Position numbers and translations under genes: made by a program | Notes under the pieces: generated by a model | Told to the model about the DNA's origin: nothing | Database searches by the model: none | The model's input: only the letters and a program-made list of their open reading frames with translations | NCBI GenBank assembly: GCA_021299185.1 | Contig: JAJTHZ010000067.1 | Span: 1-64,000, forward strand | Reading direction: 5' to 3' | Length of the DNA stretch: 64,000 bases | Origin: Lysobacteraceae bacterium | GTDB lineage: Bacteria > Pseudomonadota > Gammaproteobacteria > Xanthomonadales > Ahniellaceae | Part shown: positions 17,257 to 27,698 of the stretch, one piece after another | Layout of the letters: each line of letters begins with the position of its first letter | Numbering within the stretch: the stretch's first letter is position 1

Positions 17257-18372
17257 ATGTCGAAACGTGACTACTACGAAGTCCTGGGGGTCGGCCGCGG
17301 CGCGACCGAGGACGAGGTGAAGAAGGCCTATCGCCGGCTGGCGATGAAGTACCACCCCGACCGCAACGACGGGGACAAGGGCGCCGAGCAGAAGTTCAAG
17401 GAGGCCAAGGAGGCCTACGAGGTGCTGTCGGACGCCGACAAGCGCCGCCTCTATGACGCGCATGGCCATGCCGCGTTCGAAGGCGGCGGCGGCGCGGGCC
17501 GCGGCGCTGCGGGCGCCGACTTCGGCGACATCTTCGGCGACATCTTCGGGGATATCTTCGGCGGCGGGCGGCAGCGCGCGCGCCGCGGGGCGGACCTGCG
17601 CTACGTGGTCGAACTCGACCTCGAGGAGGCGGTGTTCGGCGCCACGCGCGAGATCGAGATCCCGACCCTCGACGAATGCAAGGCCTGCGACGGCAGCGGC
17701 TCGTCCGACGGCAAGCGCAAGACCTGCGGCACCTGCCGCGGCCACGGCCGCGTGCGCATGCAGAACGGGATCTTCTCCATCCAGCAGACCTGCCCGACCT
17801 GCGGCGGGTCCGGGCAGGTGGTCGAGAACCCGTGCAAGGTCTGCCGCGGCGCCGGGCGCGTCGAAGGCGAGAAGACGCTGTCGGTGAAGATCCCCGCCGG
17901 CGTCGACGAGGGTGACCGCATCCGCCTCGCCGGCGAAGGCCAGGCCGGGGCGCGCGGGGTGCCGGCGGGCGACCTCTACGTCGAGGTCCACGTCAAGCCG
18001 CACCCGATCTTCCAGCGCGATGGCGCCGACCTCTACTGCGAAGTGCCGATCCGCTTCTCGCAGGCCGCCCTGGGCGGCGAACTCACCGTGCCCACGCTCG
18101 GGGGCGAGGCCCTGATCAAGATTCCGGTCGAAACGCAGAGCGGCAAGCTGTTCCGCCTGCGCGGCAAGGGCGTCAAGCCGGTGCGCGGGGGCGAAGCGGG
18201 TGACCTGCTGTGCCGCGTGGTCGTCGAGACCCCGGTCAAGCTGACCCGCAAGCAGAAGGAACTGCTGGAGCAGTTCGAGGCCTCGTTCGAGGATGGCCGC
18301 GAACACACGCCGCGGCAGACGGGCTGGTTCGACGGCGTGAAGCAGTTCTGGGACCGCATGACCTCGGGCTGA
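17257..18372 (+). CDS. dnaJ: Chaperone DnaJ (Hsp40)
   Basis: 371 residues, ATG at 17257. J-domain with the HPD tripeptide (KYHPDRN), then a Gly/Phe-rich segment containing three F-G-D-I repeats. The zinc domain has four C-x-x-C-x-G-x-G units ([36 protein letters not shown]). C-terminal substrate-binding beta-domains follow. Complete type I DnaJ. It delivers substrates to DnaK and stimulates its ATPase. About 150 bp separate it from dnaK. Confidence 0.97.
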
Positions 18373-18394
18373 GGCCCGCGGCCGCGGCGCGCGC

Positions 18395-18703
18395 TCAGCT
18401 GGCGCGCGCCAGTTCCACGTCGGCGGGATCTTCGCGACGCACCTGCGACGGGTCGCCATACATGCGGAAGGCGGTCGGACGCCCGTCGTCGCCCATCACC
18501 ACCACCCGCGACACGGTCTGCCGCAGGCGCCAGGCGTTGGACGCCAGCGTGTGGGCCGCGTCGGCCGCGGCATCGCGATCGGGGAACGACGCCACCGGGG
18601 CGCCGGACTGAACCACCGTCCAGGTGCGACGATCGTTGGCCGATCGCTCGACCCGGAACACCTGCACGCTGGGCGTCTCGCTTCCGCTGGAGAGGGTGAT
18701 CAT
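18395..18703 (-). CDS. Small hypothetical protein
   Basis: 102 residues if it starts at MITLSSGSE (ATG 18703); longer in-frame starts exist up to 18862. The core reads ERSANDRRTWTVVQSGAPVASFPDRDAAADAAHTLASNAWRL, then RVVVMGDDGRPTAFRMYG. This two-strand, helix, strand pattern resembles DUF2188-like small proteins, in which a tail strand reads hxxDGxxxxxxxYG. No signal peptide in the short form. It lies between dnaJ and dapB on the opposite strand, with no operon partners. Function unknown. Confidence 0.55.
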   Translation of the reverse strand: MITLSSGSETPSVQVFRVERSANDRRTWTVVQSGAPVASFPDRDAAADAAHTLASNAWRLRQTVSRVVVMGDDGRPTAFRMYGDPSQVRREDPADVELARAS

Positions 18704-18881
18704 CGTCGTCGTGCAGGCTTGCGGCCCGCCTCCTTGGGGTTGCGCGGCCGACGTCGCGGTCCGCGTAGCCACTATGTCACCGCGGTGGCAGGGCTCCCGT
18801 GTGTTACCGGTAAAACACTTTTTCGGCGCCGCGCCTACCGGGGTGGCGCCACGACTTGTCACAGTGGCGCGCCGACCGGCC

Positions 18882-18887
18882 TACAAT
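18882..18887 (+). promoter_or_regulatory. -10 box of dapB, consistent with a leaderless transcript
   Basis: TACAAT ends seven bases before the dapB ATG at 18894, so transcription should begin at or next to the A of the start codon. A GTCACA at 18858-18863 would serve as -35 with an 18-base spacer. There is no ribosome-binding sequence before the gene. Confidence 0.5.
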
Positions 18888-18893
18888 GACGGC

Positions 18894-19691
18894 ATGACCA
18901 AGACCCGCATTGCCGTGCTCGGCGCGGCCGGCCGCATGGGGCGCGCGACCCTGGCGGCGATCGCCGCCCGCGACGACTGCGTGCTGGCGGCCGCCCTGGT
19001 GCGCCCGCGCGCAGACGGCGCGCTCGCGCTGGATGCCGCGGCGGGCGTGTTCGCGCCCTCCAATACGCTGCGCGAGCGGCTCGACGACGGCGACCCGGTC
19101 GACGTGCTGGTCGACTTCAGCGGACCCGGCGGATTCGACCGCGCCCTGTCGGAGTGCCTCGCGCGGGGCATCCCGCTGGTGAGCGGCAGCACGGGCCTGG
19201 ACGCGGCGCAGCAGACCGCCGCGCGCGCCGCCGCCGCGCGGATCCCGGTCCTGTGCGCCTCCAACTTCAGTCTCGGGGTGGCGCTGCTGCGGCGCCTGGT
19301 GGCGACCGCGGCAACGGCGCTCGGCCCGGCGTTCGAGGCCGAGGTCACCGAAACCCACCACCGGGCCAAGGTCGACGCGCCGTCGGGCACGGCGTTGACG
19401 CTGGGTCGCGCGGTCGCGCAGGCGCGCGGTCAGGACTTCGACCGGGTCGCGCGGTTCGCGCGCGAGGGGAACGCCGGCCCGCGACCGGTCGACGAGATCG
19501 GCTTCGCCGTGGTCCGCGCTGCCGACGTGGTGGGCGAGCACACGGTGCTGTTCGCCGCCGACGGCGAGCGGCTCGAACTGAGCCATCGCGCCACCGATCG
19601 CGCGATCTTCGCCCGCGGGGCGGTGGCCGCCGCGTGCTGGATCGCGGGGCGGCCGCCCGGCTGGCACGACATCATCGACGTGCTCGGTTGA
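18894..19691 (+). CDS. dapB: 4-hydroxy-tetrahydrodipicolinate reductase DapB
   Basis: 265 residues, ATG at 18894. Rossmann nucleotide-binding motif VLGAAGRMGRA at the N-terminus, SGSTGLD, the catalytic segment ETHHRAKVDAPSGTAL (His pair and Lys), and the closing strand. It reduces 4-hydroxy-tetrahydrodipicolinate with NAD(P)H in the diaminopimelate/lysine pathway that feeds cell-wall synthesis. It precedes carA, as in many proteobacteria. The loop after residue 60 (FAPSNTLRERLDDGDPVD) is shorter than in E. coli. Confidence 0.95.
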   Translation: MTKTRIAVLGAAGRMGRATLAAIAARDDCVLAAALVRPRADGALALDAAAGVFAPSNTLRERLDDGDPVDVLVDFSGPGGFDRALSECLARGIPLVSGSTGLDAAQQTAARAAAARIPVLCASNFSLGVALLRRLVATAATALGPAFEAEVTETHHRAKVDAPSGTALTLGRAVAQARGQDFDRVARFAREGNAGPRPVDEIGFAVVRAADVVGEHTVLFAADGERLELSHRATDRAIFARGAVAAACWIAGRPPGWHDIIDVLG

Positions 19692-19851
19692 GGCGCGCGC
19701 TGCGGGCGTCGGTGCCAGGAAGCCGCCGCGGCACGGGAGGCGGCGTCGGCATGCCGTGAAGCCGCGCGCTGGACCGTGGCACGATCGGCGCGGCAGGTCC
19801 GGTCTTGTCGAATCGTGACCGACGACGTGGACACGCAGACCCCTCGAAACC

Positions 19852-19857
19852 TAGAAT
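19852..19857 (+). promoter_or_regulatory. -10 box upstream of carA
   Basis: TAGAAT lies 90 bp before the carA GTG start, giving a leader of about 83 nt. No clear -35. Together with the 255-bp dapB-carA gap it suggests that carA has its own promoter. Confidence 0.4.
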
Positions 19858-19946
19858 GGGGGTCCGCTCGTGGCGCCGTCCGCGTGGCCCGCGGGCCGCG
19901 CCGCCCGGTCGCGCGGGCCGACCGTCCCGTCCGAACGAAGGCCACC

Positions 19947-21098
19947 GTGACCACACCCGCACTCCTCGCCCTCGCCGACGGCAGCCTCTTCCACGGGGTC
20001 TCGATCGGTGCGTCCGGCGAGTCGGTGGGCGAGGTGGTGTTCAACACCGCGATGACCGGCTACCAGGAGATCCTCACCGATCCGTCCTACAGCCGGCAGA
20101 TCGTCACCCTGACCTATCCCCACATCGGCAACACCGGCGTCAACGCGGTGGACGTCGAATCGGGCGCGGTGCATGCCGCCGGCCTGGTGGTGCGCGACGT
20201 GCCGCAGCGCGTCTCCAACTGGCGCAGCGAGGAATCGCTGCCGGCCTACCTGGCGCGCCACGGCGTGGTCGGCATCGCCGAGATCGATACCCGCCGCCTG
20301 ACCCGCATCCTGCGCGACCAGGGCGCGCAGAGCGGCTGCCTGGTCGCGGGCCCGTCGATCGACGCCGAGGCGGCCGTCGCGCGCGCGCGCGCCTGGCCCG
20401 GACTGAAGGGCATGGACCTCGCGAAGGTGGTCAGCGCGCCGCGCCCCTACGCGTGGAGCGAAGGCACCTACGACCTCGACCGCACCGCGTTCGGGCCGGC
20501 CGGCAACCGCTTCCATGTCGTGGCCTACGACTTCGGCGTCAAGCAGAACATCCTGCGCATGCTGGCCGACCGCGGCTGCCGCCTGACCGTGGTGCCCGCG
20601 CAGACCGGCGCCGCGGAGGTGCTCGCCCTGCGTCCGGACGGCGTTTTCCTGTCCAACGGGCCAGGTGATCCCGAGCCCTGCGACTACGCGATCAGCGCGA
20701 TCGGCGAATTCATCCGCCGCCGCCTGCCGGTGTTCGGCATCTGCCTCGGCCACCAGTTGCTCGGGCTCGCCGCGGGCGCGCGCACGGTCAAGATGAAGTT
20801 CGGCCACCACGGTGCCAACCATCCGGTGGTCGACCTCGCCACCGGGCGGGTGATGATCTCCAGCCAGAACCACGGCTTCGCGGTCGACGAGGCGACCCTG
20901 CCGCGCAACGTGCGCGCCACCCACCGCTCGCTGTTCGACGGTTCGCTGCAGGGCATCGAACTGCTGGACGCGCCGGCGTTCTCGTTCCAGGGCCACCCGG
21001 AGGCGAGTCCCGGGCCGCACGACGTGGCGCCGCTGTTCGACCGCTTCATCGAGGCGATGGCCGCGCGGGGCGTGGCCGGGGCCGCTGCCACCGGGTGA
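19947..21098 (+). CDS. carA: Carbamoyl-phosphate synthase small subunit
   Basis: 383 residues from the GTG at 19947, giving [17 protein letters not shown], which matches family N-termini; longer upstream frames are low-complexity leader. Class I glutamine amidotransferase: nucleophile Cys in [13 protein letters not shown] and His/Glu in [14 protein letters not shown]. It hydrolyses glutamine and passes ammonia to CarB, supplying arginine and pyrimidine synthesis. Followed after 4 bp by a membrane-protein gene and then carB, an arrangement found in xanthomonads. Confidence 0.96.
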
Positions 21099-21102
21099 GC
21101 GC

Positions 21103-22875
21103 ATGGCGATCGGGGCTTCGCTGCGACGCGCGTTGACGCTCTGGCGCATGCCTTCCCGCCTGACGCTGGGGATCGTCGGCGTCCTGCTGTTGCTGTTGAT
21201 CGCGGCCTGGTTGTTGGCCTGGCGCACGGCGTCGCGCCTGCCCGACAGCCTGCGCTGGTTCGGCACGCCGGAGTACGCGGCGGTGTCGGTCGGCCCGCTG
21301 GGCACCATCGAGTACCGCGATTTCCGCCTGCGCGATCCGGACCCTCGCGGCGGCGACGTGTTCTCCGCCGCGCGCCTGCGGCTGGAAACGCCGGGACTGC
21401 ACTGGCTGGTTTGGCACGGGCTGTCGGGCGGACCGTCGTCGGGCGGGCTGGCCGATGTGCTCGGCCCGGCGCGTCGTGCGCGCGCCGAGCAGTCCGGCGG
21501 CGTACCGCCGGCCTTTCCGCCGGCCGCGCGCCTGCGCCTGCAGGCCGAAGGCCTGGTCGCGGGGCCCGCGCTCGCGGTGGGCGACCTGCGCTGGATCGGA
21601 TTGACCAGCGGCGCCCCGCTGGACGGCGAGGGCTGCGACGGCATCGGACGCTTCACCGCCGCCCACCTGGTGGAGATGGGCCTCGATGACGTGCCGACGC
21701 AGGCCGAGGCCAGTTTCGTGGTGACCGGCCGCGATGCGGCGCGGATCACCTTCGCGATCGAGCAGCGCGCCGCCTCGCGCACCGAGCTCGACATGCAGCT
21801 TCGCCTCGACGGCGTGCGCGGCCTGCTGGACGCGGACTGGTCGCGCAGCGTGATCCTCGAGCGGCGCTGGACGGTGCGCGACCTCGGGATGGTGTCGGCG
21901 CGCAACCGCTGGTGCGCGCAGCGGATGGGGATCAGTCGCGACGGCTACGTCGATCGCCACCTCGGCGCGATCAAGCGCATGCTGGCCGAAGTGGGCGCAG
22001 CACCGACCCGCGACCTCGAATCGGCCTACCGCCGCTACGCGGCGCGCGGTGGCGAGATCACCTGGGAATCGAAGCCGAGCCTGACCACGCCGGTCGGCCA
22101 GCTCGCGACCTTCGCCTTGCCGGAGCGCCTGCGGATCATGAACGCCACGCTCGAAAGCGTGCGCGGGCGGGCCGCACCGTTCCGCTTCGAGGCCGTGCCA
22201 CTGCCGGTGGCCGCGGCGCCGCTGGAAGCGCCGCCGTTGCCCGGTGTCGCCGACGCCAGCGCTGTCGCAACCCCCGTGCCGGGGACCGCCCCCGCGGCGA
22301 CGCCGCCTGCCGGCGAGGCGCTGCCCGTGCCGGCCCCTCCGCTGGCGTCCGTGCAGGGACCGGACACCGCGCCGCCGATCGCCCCGCCGGCGCCGCCTGC
22401 ATCGACTCCGGAACCGGCCGCCGGCGGCGCGCCCGTGGCCGACCGTTCACCTCCGGCGCCCGCGCCGGAAGCTGCGCCCACCCCCGTGCCCGCGCGCCCG
22501 CTCGCGACCACGGCGCCGCCGGTGGTCGACCCGATCGCCTCCCCGCGCGAAGCGCGTGCGTCGGACCCGCCGGTGCAAAGGGCCCCCGCACCCCGCGAAC
22601 CGGGCACGCTCGCCCGCGTGTCGCCCCCGCCGCCGGCGGCCGGGCCGGTGCGCTACGCCGACCTCGCGCTGCTCGAAGGACGCCGCATCGAAGTGCGCAG
22701 CGTCTACGGCTCGGTGCGGCGCGGCACGCTGGAGAAGTACACCGATACCGCGATCACGCTGCGTCTCGAGCAGCGCGAGCGCGGCCTCAGCGTCACCATG
22801 CCGCAGCAGACCGTGGACAGCGTGCGCCTGCTCGACACCCCGTACGGCGCCGGCGACGCACCACCGCCCGGCTGA
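21103..22875 (+). CDS. Membrane-anchored protein with Sm-like C-terminal domain, between carA and carB
   Basis: 590 residues, ATG at 21103, four bases after carA. It has one membrane helix (about residues 24-44: [19 protein letters not shown]). An AsmA-like beta-rich region follows ([30 protein letters not shown]). A globular middle runs to about residue 365. Next comes a very Pro/Ala-rich linker of about 150 residues. The C-terminal 65 residues read [44 protein letters not shown]. This short five-strand pattern, with a turn G-S-V-R-R-G-T-L, looks like the Sm/Hfq or LSm fold. I know no assigned function. The position inside the car operon is conserved in the order. Confidence 0.7.
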
Positions 22876-22911
22876 GCGCGGCGCGACCTATCGGGACACC
22901 GGCGCAGGCCC

Positions 22912-22917
22912 TACAAT
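22912..22917 (+). promoter_or_regulatory. -10 box upstream of carB
   Basis: TACAAT lies 107 bp before the carB start in the 148-bp gap after the membrane-protein gene. It would give carB a separate transcript with a leader of about 100 nt. The -35 is not recognisable. Confidence 0.45.
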
Positions 22918-23023
22918 TGCGCCCCGGGCTCCGAGCCCCGGCGGGCGCGCCGCCCCCGCAGCACGATCCACCGACCCTTCCCACGCAGCCCTGCGCCGTG
23001 TCCCGGCGCAGCCGAGGCCGGCC

Positions 23024-26254
<3,231 letters not shown>

Positions 26255-26281
26255 CCCGCATCCAGGATTGCATCGCAGACC

Positions 26282-26761
26282 ATGAAACGGACTCCCCTGA
26301 CCGCCCGCGGCGCGCAGCGCCTGCGCGAGGAACTCGAACGCCTCAAGAGCTTGGTGCGCCCGCAGATCATCCAGGCGATCGCCGAGGCGCGCGCGCACGG
26401 CGACCTGAAGGAGAACGCCGAGTACCACGCCGCGCGCGAGCAGCAGGGCTTCACCGAGGGCCGCATCAACGAGCTCGAGGCGGCGCTGTCCTACGCCGAG
26501 ATCATCGACACCAGCAAGTTGAACGCCGGTTCGCGGATCGTGTTCGGCGCGATCGTCGAACTCGAGGAGCACGACAGCGGCGAGCCGGTGAAGTACCAGA
26601 TCGTGGGCGACCTCGAGGCCGACATCCGCGAGGGCCGCATCTCGGTCTCGTCGCCGGTGGCGCGCGCGCTAATCGGCAAGAGCGAGGGCGACGTGATCCA
26701 GATCGAAACCCCGCGCGGCATCCGGCGCTACGAGGTGGTGGCGGTCGCTTACGAGGGCTGA
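26282..26761 (+). CDS. greA: Transcription elongation factor GreA
   Basis: 159 residues, ATG at 26282. N-terminal coiled coil with the acidic tip [28 protein letters not shown] (Asp-Leu-Lys-Glu-Asn-Ala-Glu-Tyr) that reaches the RNA-polymerase active site. The C-terminal FKBP-like domain ends in [23 protein letters not shown]. It rescues backtracked polymerase by stimulating transcript cleavage. Lies 27 bp after carB and 7 bp before rpfE, the conserved order carB-greA. Confidence 0.97.
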
Positions 26762-26768
26762 GCGCGGC

Positions 26769-27698
26769 ATGCCCGCGTCGCTGGTCCTGCTGCTGCCCCG
26801 GCGTGCCGTGCTGGCGGGCCCGGAACGGCTGCCTGCGCTGGAACGCATCCTGGCCCGCGGGGTTCGCCTGCCGTTGGATGCGGCGCGTGGGCATCCGTGG
26901 CTCGAGCATCTCATCGACCTGCCGCGTCGCCCCTGGCCGTGGGCGGCGATCACGCGCGCCGCCGATGCGGGCGACGCGGGGCAGGGCGTGTGGCTGCGCG
27001 CGGACCCTGCGCATGTCCGTGCCGACATCGCGGGCGCGCGCCTGCTCGCGGTGGGCGACCTCGGGCTCGCGGCGCAGGAATCGGCCGCCCTGCAACGCAC
27101 GCTCGCCCCGCTGTTCGGCGACCTCGGCTTCGAGTGCAGCGCGCCGCGGCCGGAACGCTGGTATCTGCGCCTGCCGCCCGGCGCCGAAATGCCGCACTTC
27201 AGCCCGCCATGGCAGGCGCTGGGCGAGGACGTACGCGCCCACCTGCCGCAGGGTGGGCCGGCGGCGCGCTGGCAGCGCGTGATGAACGAATGCCAGGTCG
27301 TGCTGCACGACCATCCGGTGAACCAGGCTCGCGCCGCCGCCGGGCGGATGACGGCGAACAGCCTGTGGTTCTGGGGCGGCGGCAGCGCGCCGACCCGCGT
27401 GAGTGCGCGGATCGATGCGGTGGCGAGCGAAGATCCCCTGCTCAGCGCGCTGGCCGCGGCGGCCGGCGTGCCGGTGTCGCGCAGCGCGACGGCCGGGCCG
27501 GCCCGCCAGCTGCTCGACCTGCGCGCGCTGCGCGACCCGCGGGCGCTGGATGCGGCCTGGATCGAACCCGCGTGGCGCGCCCTCAGGCTCGGCGAACTGG
27601 CGACGCTGGAAGCGCTGTTCGCCGACGGCGAGGCCTTTCGCGTCGGCCGCGCGGCGGCCTTCGCGGCGTGGCGACGGCCGCGCCCGCTCGCGTCGTGA
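26769..27698 (+). CDS. rpfE: RpfE (phosphoglycerate-mutase-like regulatory protein)
   Basis: 309 residues, ATG at 26769. Matches the RpfE family of xanthomonads by position and content: PASLVLLLPRRAVLAGPERLPALERILARG at the start, WLRADPAHVRADIAGARLLAVGDLGL, WQRVMNECQVVLHDHPVNQARAAAGRMTANSLWFWGGG (the best-conserved block). It is encoded between greA and recJ, as in Xanthomonas, where rpfE mutants alter extracellular enzyme and polysaccharide production to a small degree. Biochemical activity unproven. Its stop overlaps the recJ start (GTGA), so the two are translationally coupled. Confidence 0.85.
   Translation: MPASLVLLLPRRAVLAGPERLPALERILARGVRLPLDAARGHPWLEHLIDLPRRPWPWAAITRAADAGDAGQGVWLRADPAHVRADIAGARLLAVGDLGLAAQESAALQRTLAPLFGDLGFECSAPRPERWYLRLPPGAEMPHFSPPWQALGEDVRAHLPQGGPAARWQRVMNECQVVLHDHPVNQARAAAGRMTANSLWFWGGGSAPTRVSARIDAVASEDPLLSALAAAAGVPVSRSATAGPARQLLDLRALRDPRALDAAWIEPAWRALRLGELATLEALFADGEAFRVGRAAAFAAWRRPRPLAS

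Follow-up and report, generated by a model that had tools for sequence, protein, structure and literature searches.

The gene lodged between carA and carB in this Lysobacteraceae bacterium encodes a 590-residue protein that is probably membrane-anchored and periplasmic, and whose C-terminal tail, predicted to adopt the Sm/Hfq fold and carried on a flexible linker, would act as an interaction or assembly module; the alternative of an RNA clamp is unlikely. The argument draws on the predicted fold of the tail, its constant fusion to the same body domain, the export-like signals of its short relatives, the clustering of tails from the car operon, and the membrane domains to which the tail is fused or adjacent in sister proteins.

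Gene and operon position

In the window (the whole stretch of DNA analyzed, 64,000 nucleotides of contig JAJTHZ010000067.1), carA, the open reading frame (ORF) of 590 amino acids and carB lie on the same strand, with 4 nt between the carA stop codon and the ORF and 148 nt between the ORF and the carB start (Table 1). These coordinates, together with the NCBIfam names of both neighbors, bear out the placement of the gene between carA and carB in a preliminary description of this DNA. The names of carA, carB and, further on, greA all lie well above the cut-off, and greA is followed by a 309-residue gene without an NCBIfam match at E ≤ 1e-20. The ORF reads as coding because the shape of its codon-position G+C (0.764/0.610/0.897 for the ORF and 0.759/0.532/0.911 for its tail) is the same as in carA and greA. 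A scan of positions 21040-23100 revealed no promoter-like site and two terminator-like sites, both within the coding region (mean of 0.4 in shuffled sequences), and Rfam at the gathering threshold gave no match over positions 18000-27000.

Table 1. Features of the carA-carB region and of the 590-residue protein, in window positions
Feature	Position	Strand	Basis or remark
Tail-protein gene (whole)	21103..22875	+	590 aa, ATG start; predicted membrane-anchored, with C-terminal Sm-fold domain
carA	19962..21098	+	19962 is the edge of the query stretch; stop 21096-21098; NCBIfam
carB	23024..26254	+	ATG 23024, stop ends 26254; NCBIfam
N-terminal signal anchor	21103..21252	+	Four K/R, then membrane helix; modeled helix 19-50
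Body domain (about residues 51-360)	21253..22182	+	Strands mixed with helices; resembles lipoprotein JlpA weakly in fold
Codon of conserved Cys178	21634..21636	+	The 590-aa protein has just two cysteines, this and Cys271
Codon of conserved Cys271	21913..21915	+	Second of only two cysteines in the 590-aa protein
Pro/Ala-rich linker (about residues 361-511)	22183..22635	+	Composition; modeled as disordered
Sm-fold tail (residues 512-578)	22636..22836	+	Helix, then five strands (predicted)
recJ, gene next after the 309-residue gene			Named by eye

Domain organization

Neither Pfam nor NCBIfam returned a model above cut-off for the full 590-aa protein, and the matches over 26 long homologues were weak throughout. 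The strongest hydrophobic 19-residue segment comprises residues 20-38 (mean Kyte-Doolittle value 2.78, the highest later value being 1.09) and is preceded by four K/R and zero D/E. In the AlphaFold2 model, ten-residue blocks of the body have pLDDT values of 38-87 and contain both strands and helices, those of the linker have values of 29-37 and are disordered, and the tail forms one helix and five strands. The structure-prediction alignments, for the protein and for the tail alone, were limited to 6 sequences each because the five loci found by scanning contigs encode proteins identical to ones already known from G021, G030, G059, G066 and G073. Of the anatomy first proposed, the membrane anchor, the Pro/Ala linker (152 residues, 30% Pro and 25% Ala) and the Sm-like tail stood, and the supposedly beta-rich body proved in the model to mix strands and helices over about residues 55-352.

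The body, as modeled within the full protein, resembles the lipoprotein JlpA (3uau; Z 10.2, rmsd 5.4 Å over 246 residues, 6% identity; Foldseek E 8.1e-4), which is the one body match among the structural matches listed. The likeness spans model residues 28-369, leaving the tail outside, and JlpA differs in being a lipoprotein, whereas the 590-aa protein has no lipobox and only Cys178 and Cys271 as cysteines. Pfam yielded no DUF945/YdgA match for the 590-aa protein, and DUF945 appeared in one of the 26 long members at E 0.012. The modeled resemblance to JlpA is a weak lead, short of an assignment.

Predicted fold of the tail

When folded alone from its 6-row alignment, the tail was again predicted as a helix plus five strands, with a mean pLDDT of 84.5. 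The best structural match of this model in VIA-align 2 was the C-terminal domain of RimP (Z 10.4, 1.6 Å, 69 residues aligned), followed at Z of about 9 by Hfq (from E. coli and others), Gemin6, archaeal Sm and GerQ; Hfq of M. jannaschii superimposes at 1.1 Å over 54 residues. The best Foldseek hit had E 2.2e-3 at a probability of 1.00, and none fell below 1e-3. At the sequence level, a profile of 32 tails gave its three strongest matches among PDB sequences to LSm8 (E 8.4e-5), KLLA0A11308p (1.4e-4) and an archaeal Sm homologue (1.9e-4); of its 93 matches, 60 are listed, and most of these bear an Sm/LSm or RimP name. The LSm8 alignment covers profile positions 7-37, corresponding to the helix and the first strands, and includes the Sm1-type sequence motif. 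Single tails gave Pfam matches at E ≤ 1 to RimP-C (DUF150_C) in 19 of 32 cases, to LSM in 10 and to SM-ATX in 7.

By prediction, therefore, the tail has the Sm/Hfq fold, in which a bent sheet of five strands forms a barrel after an N-terminal helix. The resemblance to Sm/LSm that had been read from the raw sequence was right as to fold: the predicted structure proved to be of Sm type on comparison with LSm folds, with pLDDT, RimP and Hfq Z scores and the LSm8 E value in agreement. Small beta-barrels resemble one another, and chance resemblance was considered and rejected on the profile match to LSm8, the pLDDT and the structural Z scores.

Among known systems, the RimP C-domain (PF17384; SH3/Sm-like) is the closest in structure and the commonest weak Pfam match, but the window tail scores 14.6 bits against a Pfam gathering cut-off of 26.3, and no RimP N-domain occurs in the 590 residues among Pfam matches at E ≤ 10. 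Members of the Sm/LSm/Hfq superfamily share the predicted helix and five-strand barrel and the Sm1-type match; unlike them, the tail proteins are membrane-anchored or bear an export signal, the tail of the 590-aa protein follows a long linker, and the RNA-contact positions are not conserved. A third parallel is the 'nose' domain of the diheme cytochrome c Kustd1711 (7zs0, 7zs1; structural match Z 8.9), an Hfq fold whose protein likewise bears a signal sequence, but which is strongly acidic and interrupts a cytochrome domain; its authors note both the Hfq likeness and the opposite charge of this exported cytochrome (PMC11791136). Kustd1711 serves as a known precedent for an Hfq-fold domain in an exported protein. 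Beyond PMC4619228 and PMC11791136, no publication on this gene or on an exported Sm-fold class was found among the matches listed.

RNA-contact positions and charge

Sm proteins hold RNA through an Asn in loop 3 and an Arg-Gly pair in loop 5. The tail column matching the Sm Asn (column 40) is occupied by L, I, V, A or M in all 32 tails, and Asn at column 41 and Gly at column 59 occur in at most 2 and 3 of the 32, respectively, when the nine commonest residues are counted and the LSm8 alignment is continued manually to map the columns beyond position 37. The net charge of the tails is slightly positive (mean +1.3; +2 for the tail of the 590-aa protein), a charge compatible with nucleic-acid binding. 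The RNA-binding-like role that the preliminary description had attached to the fold is nevertheless not supported and appears unlikely, in view of the unconserved Asn and Arg-Gly positions and, as indirect evidence, the export-like signals on relatives in the car slot and the cysteine pair present in 26 of 26 long homologues.

Distribution and fusion of body and tail

Of 200 genomes sampled from the order, 33 gave matches with the 590-aa protein as query, some of these matches being tail-only proteins, and a body-only profile identified 57 places in 50 of the 200; the gene is therefore more than a chance ORF. A tail search of the same genomes gave 79 places in 58 genomes, 23 of which lack a body. 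At 56 of the 57 body places, a tail lies just downstream on the same strand, and the lone exception (G026:C183) begins at base 12 of its contig; close homologues thus keep the tail, and the suggestion that it might be absent from them was not borne out. Counts leave out tandem second copies that are truncated where a locus ends, the incomplete locus L222, and L100, in which the gene after the tail gene is ambiguous. No relative of the tail was found on viral contigs.

Two long-form genes stand in tandem in three genomes of one family, f3 (G002:C16, G014:C21 and G024:C41; loci L016, L024 and L022). The window genome itself carries one more long-form paralogue, unlinked to the car genes, at positions 1460-3205 of L034 (G000:C39), its start being approximate.

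Cellular location

The short, body-less tail proteins provide a view of where the domain operates. All 21 of those examined, with start codons chosen by hand and export signals judged without a dedicated predictor, start with a hydrophobic, signal-peptide-like stretch, and two, both in the car slot, carry a lipobox (LTAC and IGAC). This set comprises 18 of the 23 body-less places plus 3 from an earlier sample (11 in the car slot and 10 elsewhere), and leaves out five weaker short matches (E 1.9e-5 to 7.9e-4; G031:C1:2664692, G090:C1, G125, G156:C21 and G197). In the long forms, both body cysteines are kept in 26 of 26 homologues and are the sole cysteines in 23; the extra cysteines of the remaining three are confined to the N-terminus and the membrane segment.

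Because of this cysteine pattern, the positive charges before the membrane helix and the export-like signals of relatives, the body and tail of the 590-aa protein are probably periplasmic, a topology derived from charge, hydropathy and relatives. The same conservation suggests a Cys178-Cys271 disulfide in the body.

Other architectures and DUF2167-like neighbors

Across the class Gammaproteobacteria, the tail was detected at E ≤ 1e-3 in 42 of 276 genomes. Twenty-nine loci were read from this search: 9 have the same body, 19 combine an N-terminal multi-transmembrane domain with the tail (assigned by eye), and 1 is incomplete. Within the order, short tail proteins outside the car slot that have a D-E-A-x-I-E-like start are directly followed, at 9 of 10 loci, by a membrane protein of 333-395 residues, forming a two-gene unit (L040, L087, L089, L092, L093, L094, L096, L098 and L099). 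Judged from sequence, the tail is present in three membrane or exported architectures across Gammaproteobacteria.

The neighboring and fused membrane domains are similar: profiles built from 7 of 9 neighbors and 13 of 19 fused proteins match each other in hhalign with a probability of 95.7 and E 1e-8. Among eight neighbor proteins scanned for the Pfam family DUF2167, three scored over the cut-off, three below it and two had no match. The DUF2167 link rests on sister proteins of the window gene, and no DUF2167 match was found in the window genome, nor in 14 control genomes, which makes this absence uninformative. As a rule, two proteins interact when certain genomes encode them as a fusion and others as neighbors. 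It is mainly because the tail is fused to, or adjacent to, a matching membrane domain in its sister proteins that it is read here as an interaction module; the interaction role, and any partner, are proposed by analogy.

The carA-carB slot

When the tail search is combined with a carA search (197 of 200 sampled genomes of the order matched), 13 of these 200 show a tail gene in the car slot, distributed over three families: 5 of 6 sampled genomes of the family of the window genome, f1, 3 of f2 and 5 of f12. The f1 exception, G003, has no carB within 4.2 kb after carA, and in G025, where the contig ends, the call rests on the carB side. Elsewhere, the gap holds S9-peptidase-like, DUF2059-like, IVS-type, GxxExxY-type (by eye) or other small genes, or nothing; it is under 80 nt in nine genomes from two f12 genera (g42, 5; g57, 4). 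Across the order, genes seem to have been inserted into the carA-carB gap repeatedly, as at a hot spot. The preliminary remark that the gene has no obvious link to carbamoyl phosphate stands, the gap in relatives being filled by unrelated genes or by none.

Genes identified by eye in the gap include IVS-type (L117, L148, L159, L160, L166 and L168), GxxExxY-type (L165 and L169) and S9-peptidase-like ones (L135, L140, L146, L150 and L158). At L045 (2167-4735), two genes likewise identified by eye, one S9-peptidase-like and the other for an exported protein of DUF2059-like type, lie between carA and the tail gene.

In the tail tree, which is built on 67 columns and has few resolved forks, a 95/99 branch sets the 16 car-slot tails (5 from long and 11 from short forms), along with 4 non-car tails among them, apart from the rest; the figure of 98% of bootstrap trees refers to car-slot tails against 8 DEAxIE-type tails only. 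The body tree groups the body of the 590-aa protein with 12 non-car proteins in a set of 13 rows (97/96), and the four other car-linked long forms group with the non-car paralogue of the window genome at C39 (94/92); on this tree the car-slot label needs three changes, at least two of them forced by well-supported branches. That the slot received the whole gene by one inheritance is rejected, as the body tree splits the car-linked bodies; the car-slot tails, by contrast, group together, although with weak resolution. The simplest reading of these trees is that what is inherited in the slot appears to be the tail, with front halves exchanged.

Operons of similar layout have been described: in Xanthomonas citri, carA-orf-carB-greA-rpfE is a single transcript with an orf in this slot, and P. 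aeruginosa has the order carA-orf-carB-greA (PMC4619228). The X. citri orf (444 bp) and the P. aeruginosa orf are stated by the authors not to be alike, with data not shown (PMC4619228). Most likely, the car linkage reflects shared transcription and not shared chemistry.

Alternative interpretations

In one alternative, the tail would be a true RNA-binding Sm domain, tethered to the membrane and facing the cytoplasm, that localizes RNA at the membrane. The Sm1-type match to LSm, the Hfq-like predicted fold and the slightly positive charge would suit such a role, but it needs the topology opposite to that indicated by 21 of 21 export-like short relatives, two of them with a lipobox, and by the cysteine pair conserved throughout, and it also meets a hydrophobic residue at every Asn-matching position and an unconserved Arg-Gly (with the mapping made by hand). 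We regard it as very improbable. A direct function in the operon is, if anything, slightly more improbable still: a tail protein that senses or regulates carbamoyl-phosphate synthase, or the supply of pyrimidine or arginine, would account for the same-strand slot in 13 of 200 genomes and three families and for the co-transcription of an orf with carA and carB in Xanthomonas citri (PMC4619228). It is opposed by the unrelated genes, or none, found in the slot elsewhere, by the seemingly extracytoplasmic tail, and by the three label changes, at least two well supported, on the body tree.

Two further readings were considered. As an SH3-like cell-wall module, the tail would tie the protein, or its lipoprotein forms, to peptidoglycan; small-barrel folds overlap SH3-like ones, Pfam calls the RimP C-domain SH3, and export-like signals, a long linker and lipobox forms in the car slot are in keeping with this. 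It is unlikely; no cell-wall-binding family is recognized among 25 of 28 Pfam families listed for the tails, and no such chain among 50 structural matches listed, absences that weaken this reading short of excluding it. JlpA has a lipid- or ligand-holding groove, and the body could instead be the working part, holding such a groove with the tail as an accessory, as the 3uau and Foldseek matches and the DUF945 match in one long member would suggest. This reading is less doubtful than that of a cell-wall module but still rather unlikely, considering the high rmsd and low identity of the JlpA match, the body pLDDT of 38-87, and the 11 short car-slot forms that keep the tail without a body.

Proposed model and significance

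Under the favored reading of the tail as a periplasmic interaction or assembly module, the anchor would leave the N-terminus in the cytoplasm and the rest of the protein in the periplasm, at the inner membrane. The body would stay near this membrane, probably held by one disulfide, and the long Pro/Ala linker could let the tail reach partners or other envelope layers, where it may mediate self-assembly or contacts between proteins. Relatives in the car slot have this tail preceded by a signal peptide, by a lipobox or by a body with a membrane anchor, and the tail would be the unit inherited there.

Cytosolic Sm proteins assemble in rings. We tentatively propose, as a possibility held with less confidence than the reading of the protein itself, that Gammaproteobacteria keep a widespread, hitherto undescribed extracytoplasmic 'envelope Sm' class, found on signal-anchored bodies, on multi-transmembrane membrane proteins and on small proteins that are exported or lipid-modified, which could form scaffolds from the inner membrane to outer layers, perhaps as rings, and of which one lineage resides in the car operon.

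The Sm/Hfq fold is known above all for RNA binding in the cytoplasm. In many Gammaproteobacteria, it has apparently been moved outside that compartment; the fold is already known, and the setting is new. For annotation, this explains what these bacteria have as a 'hypothetical' gene between carA and carB. For function, it opens to testing what an Sm barrel does without RNA, and the DUF2167-type membrane proteins offer a candidate partner from which to start.
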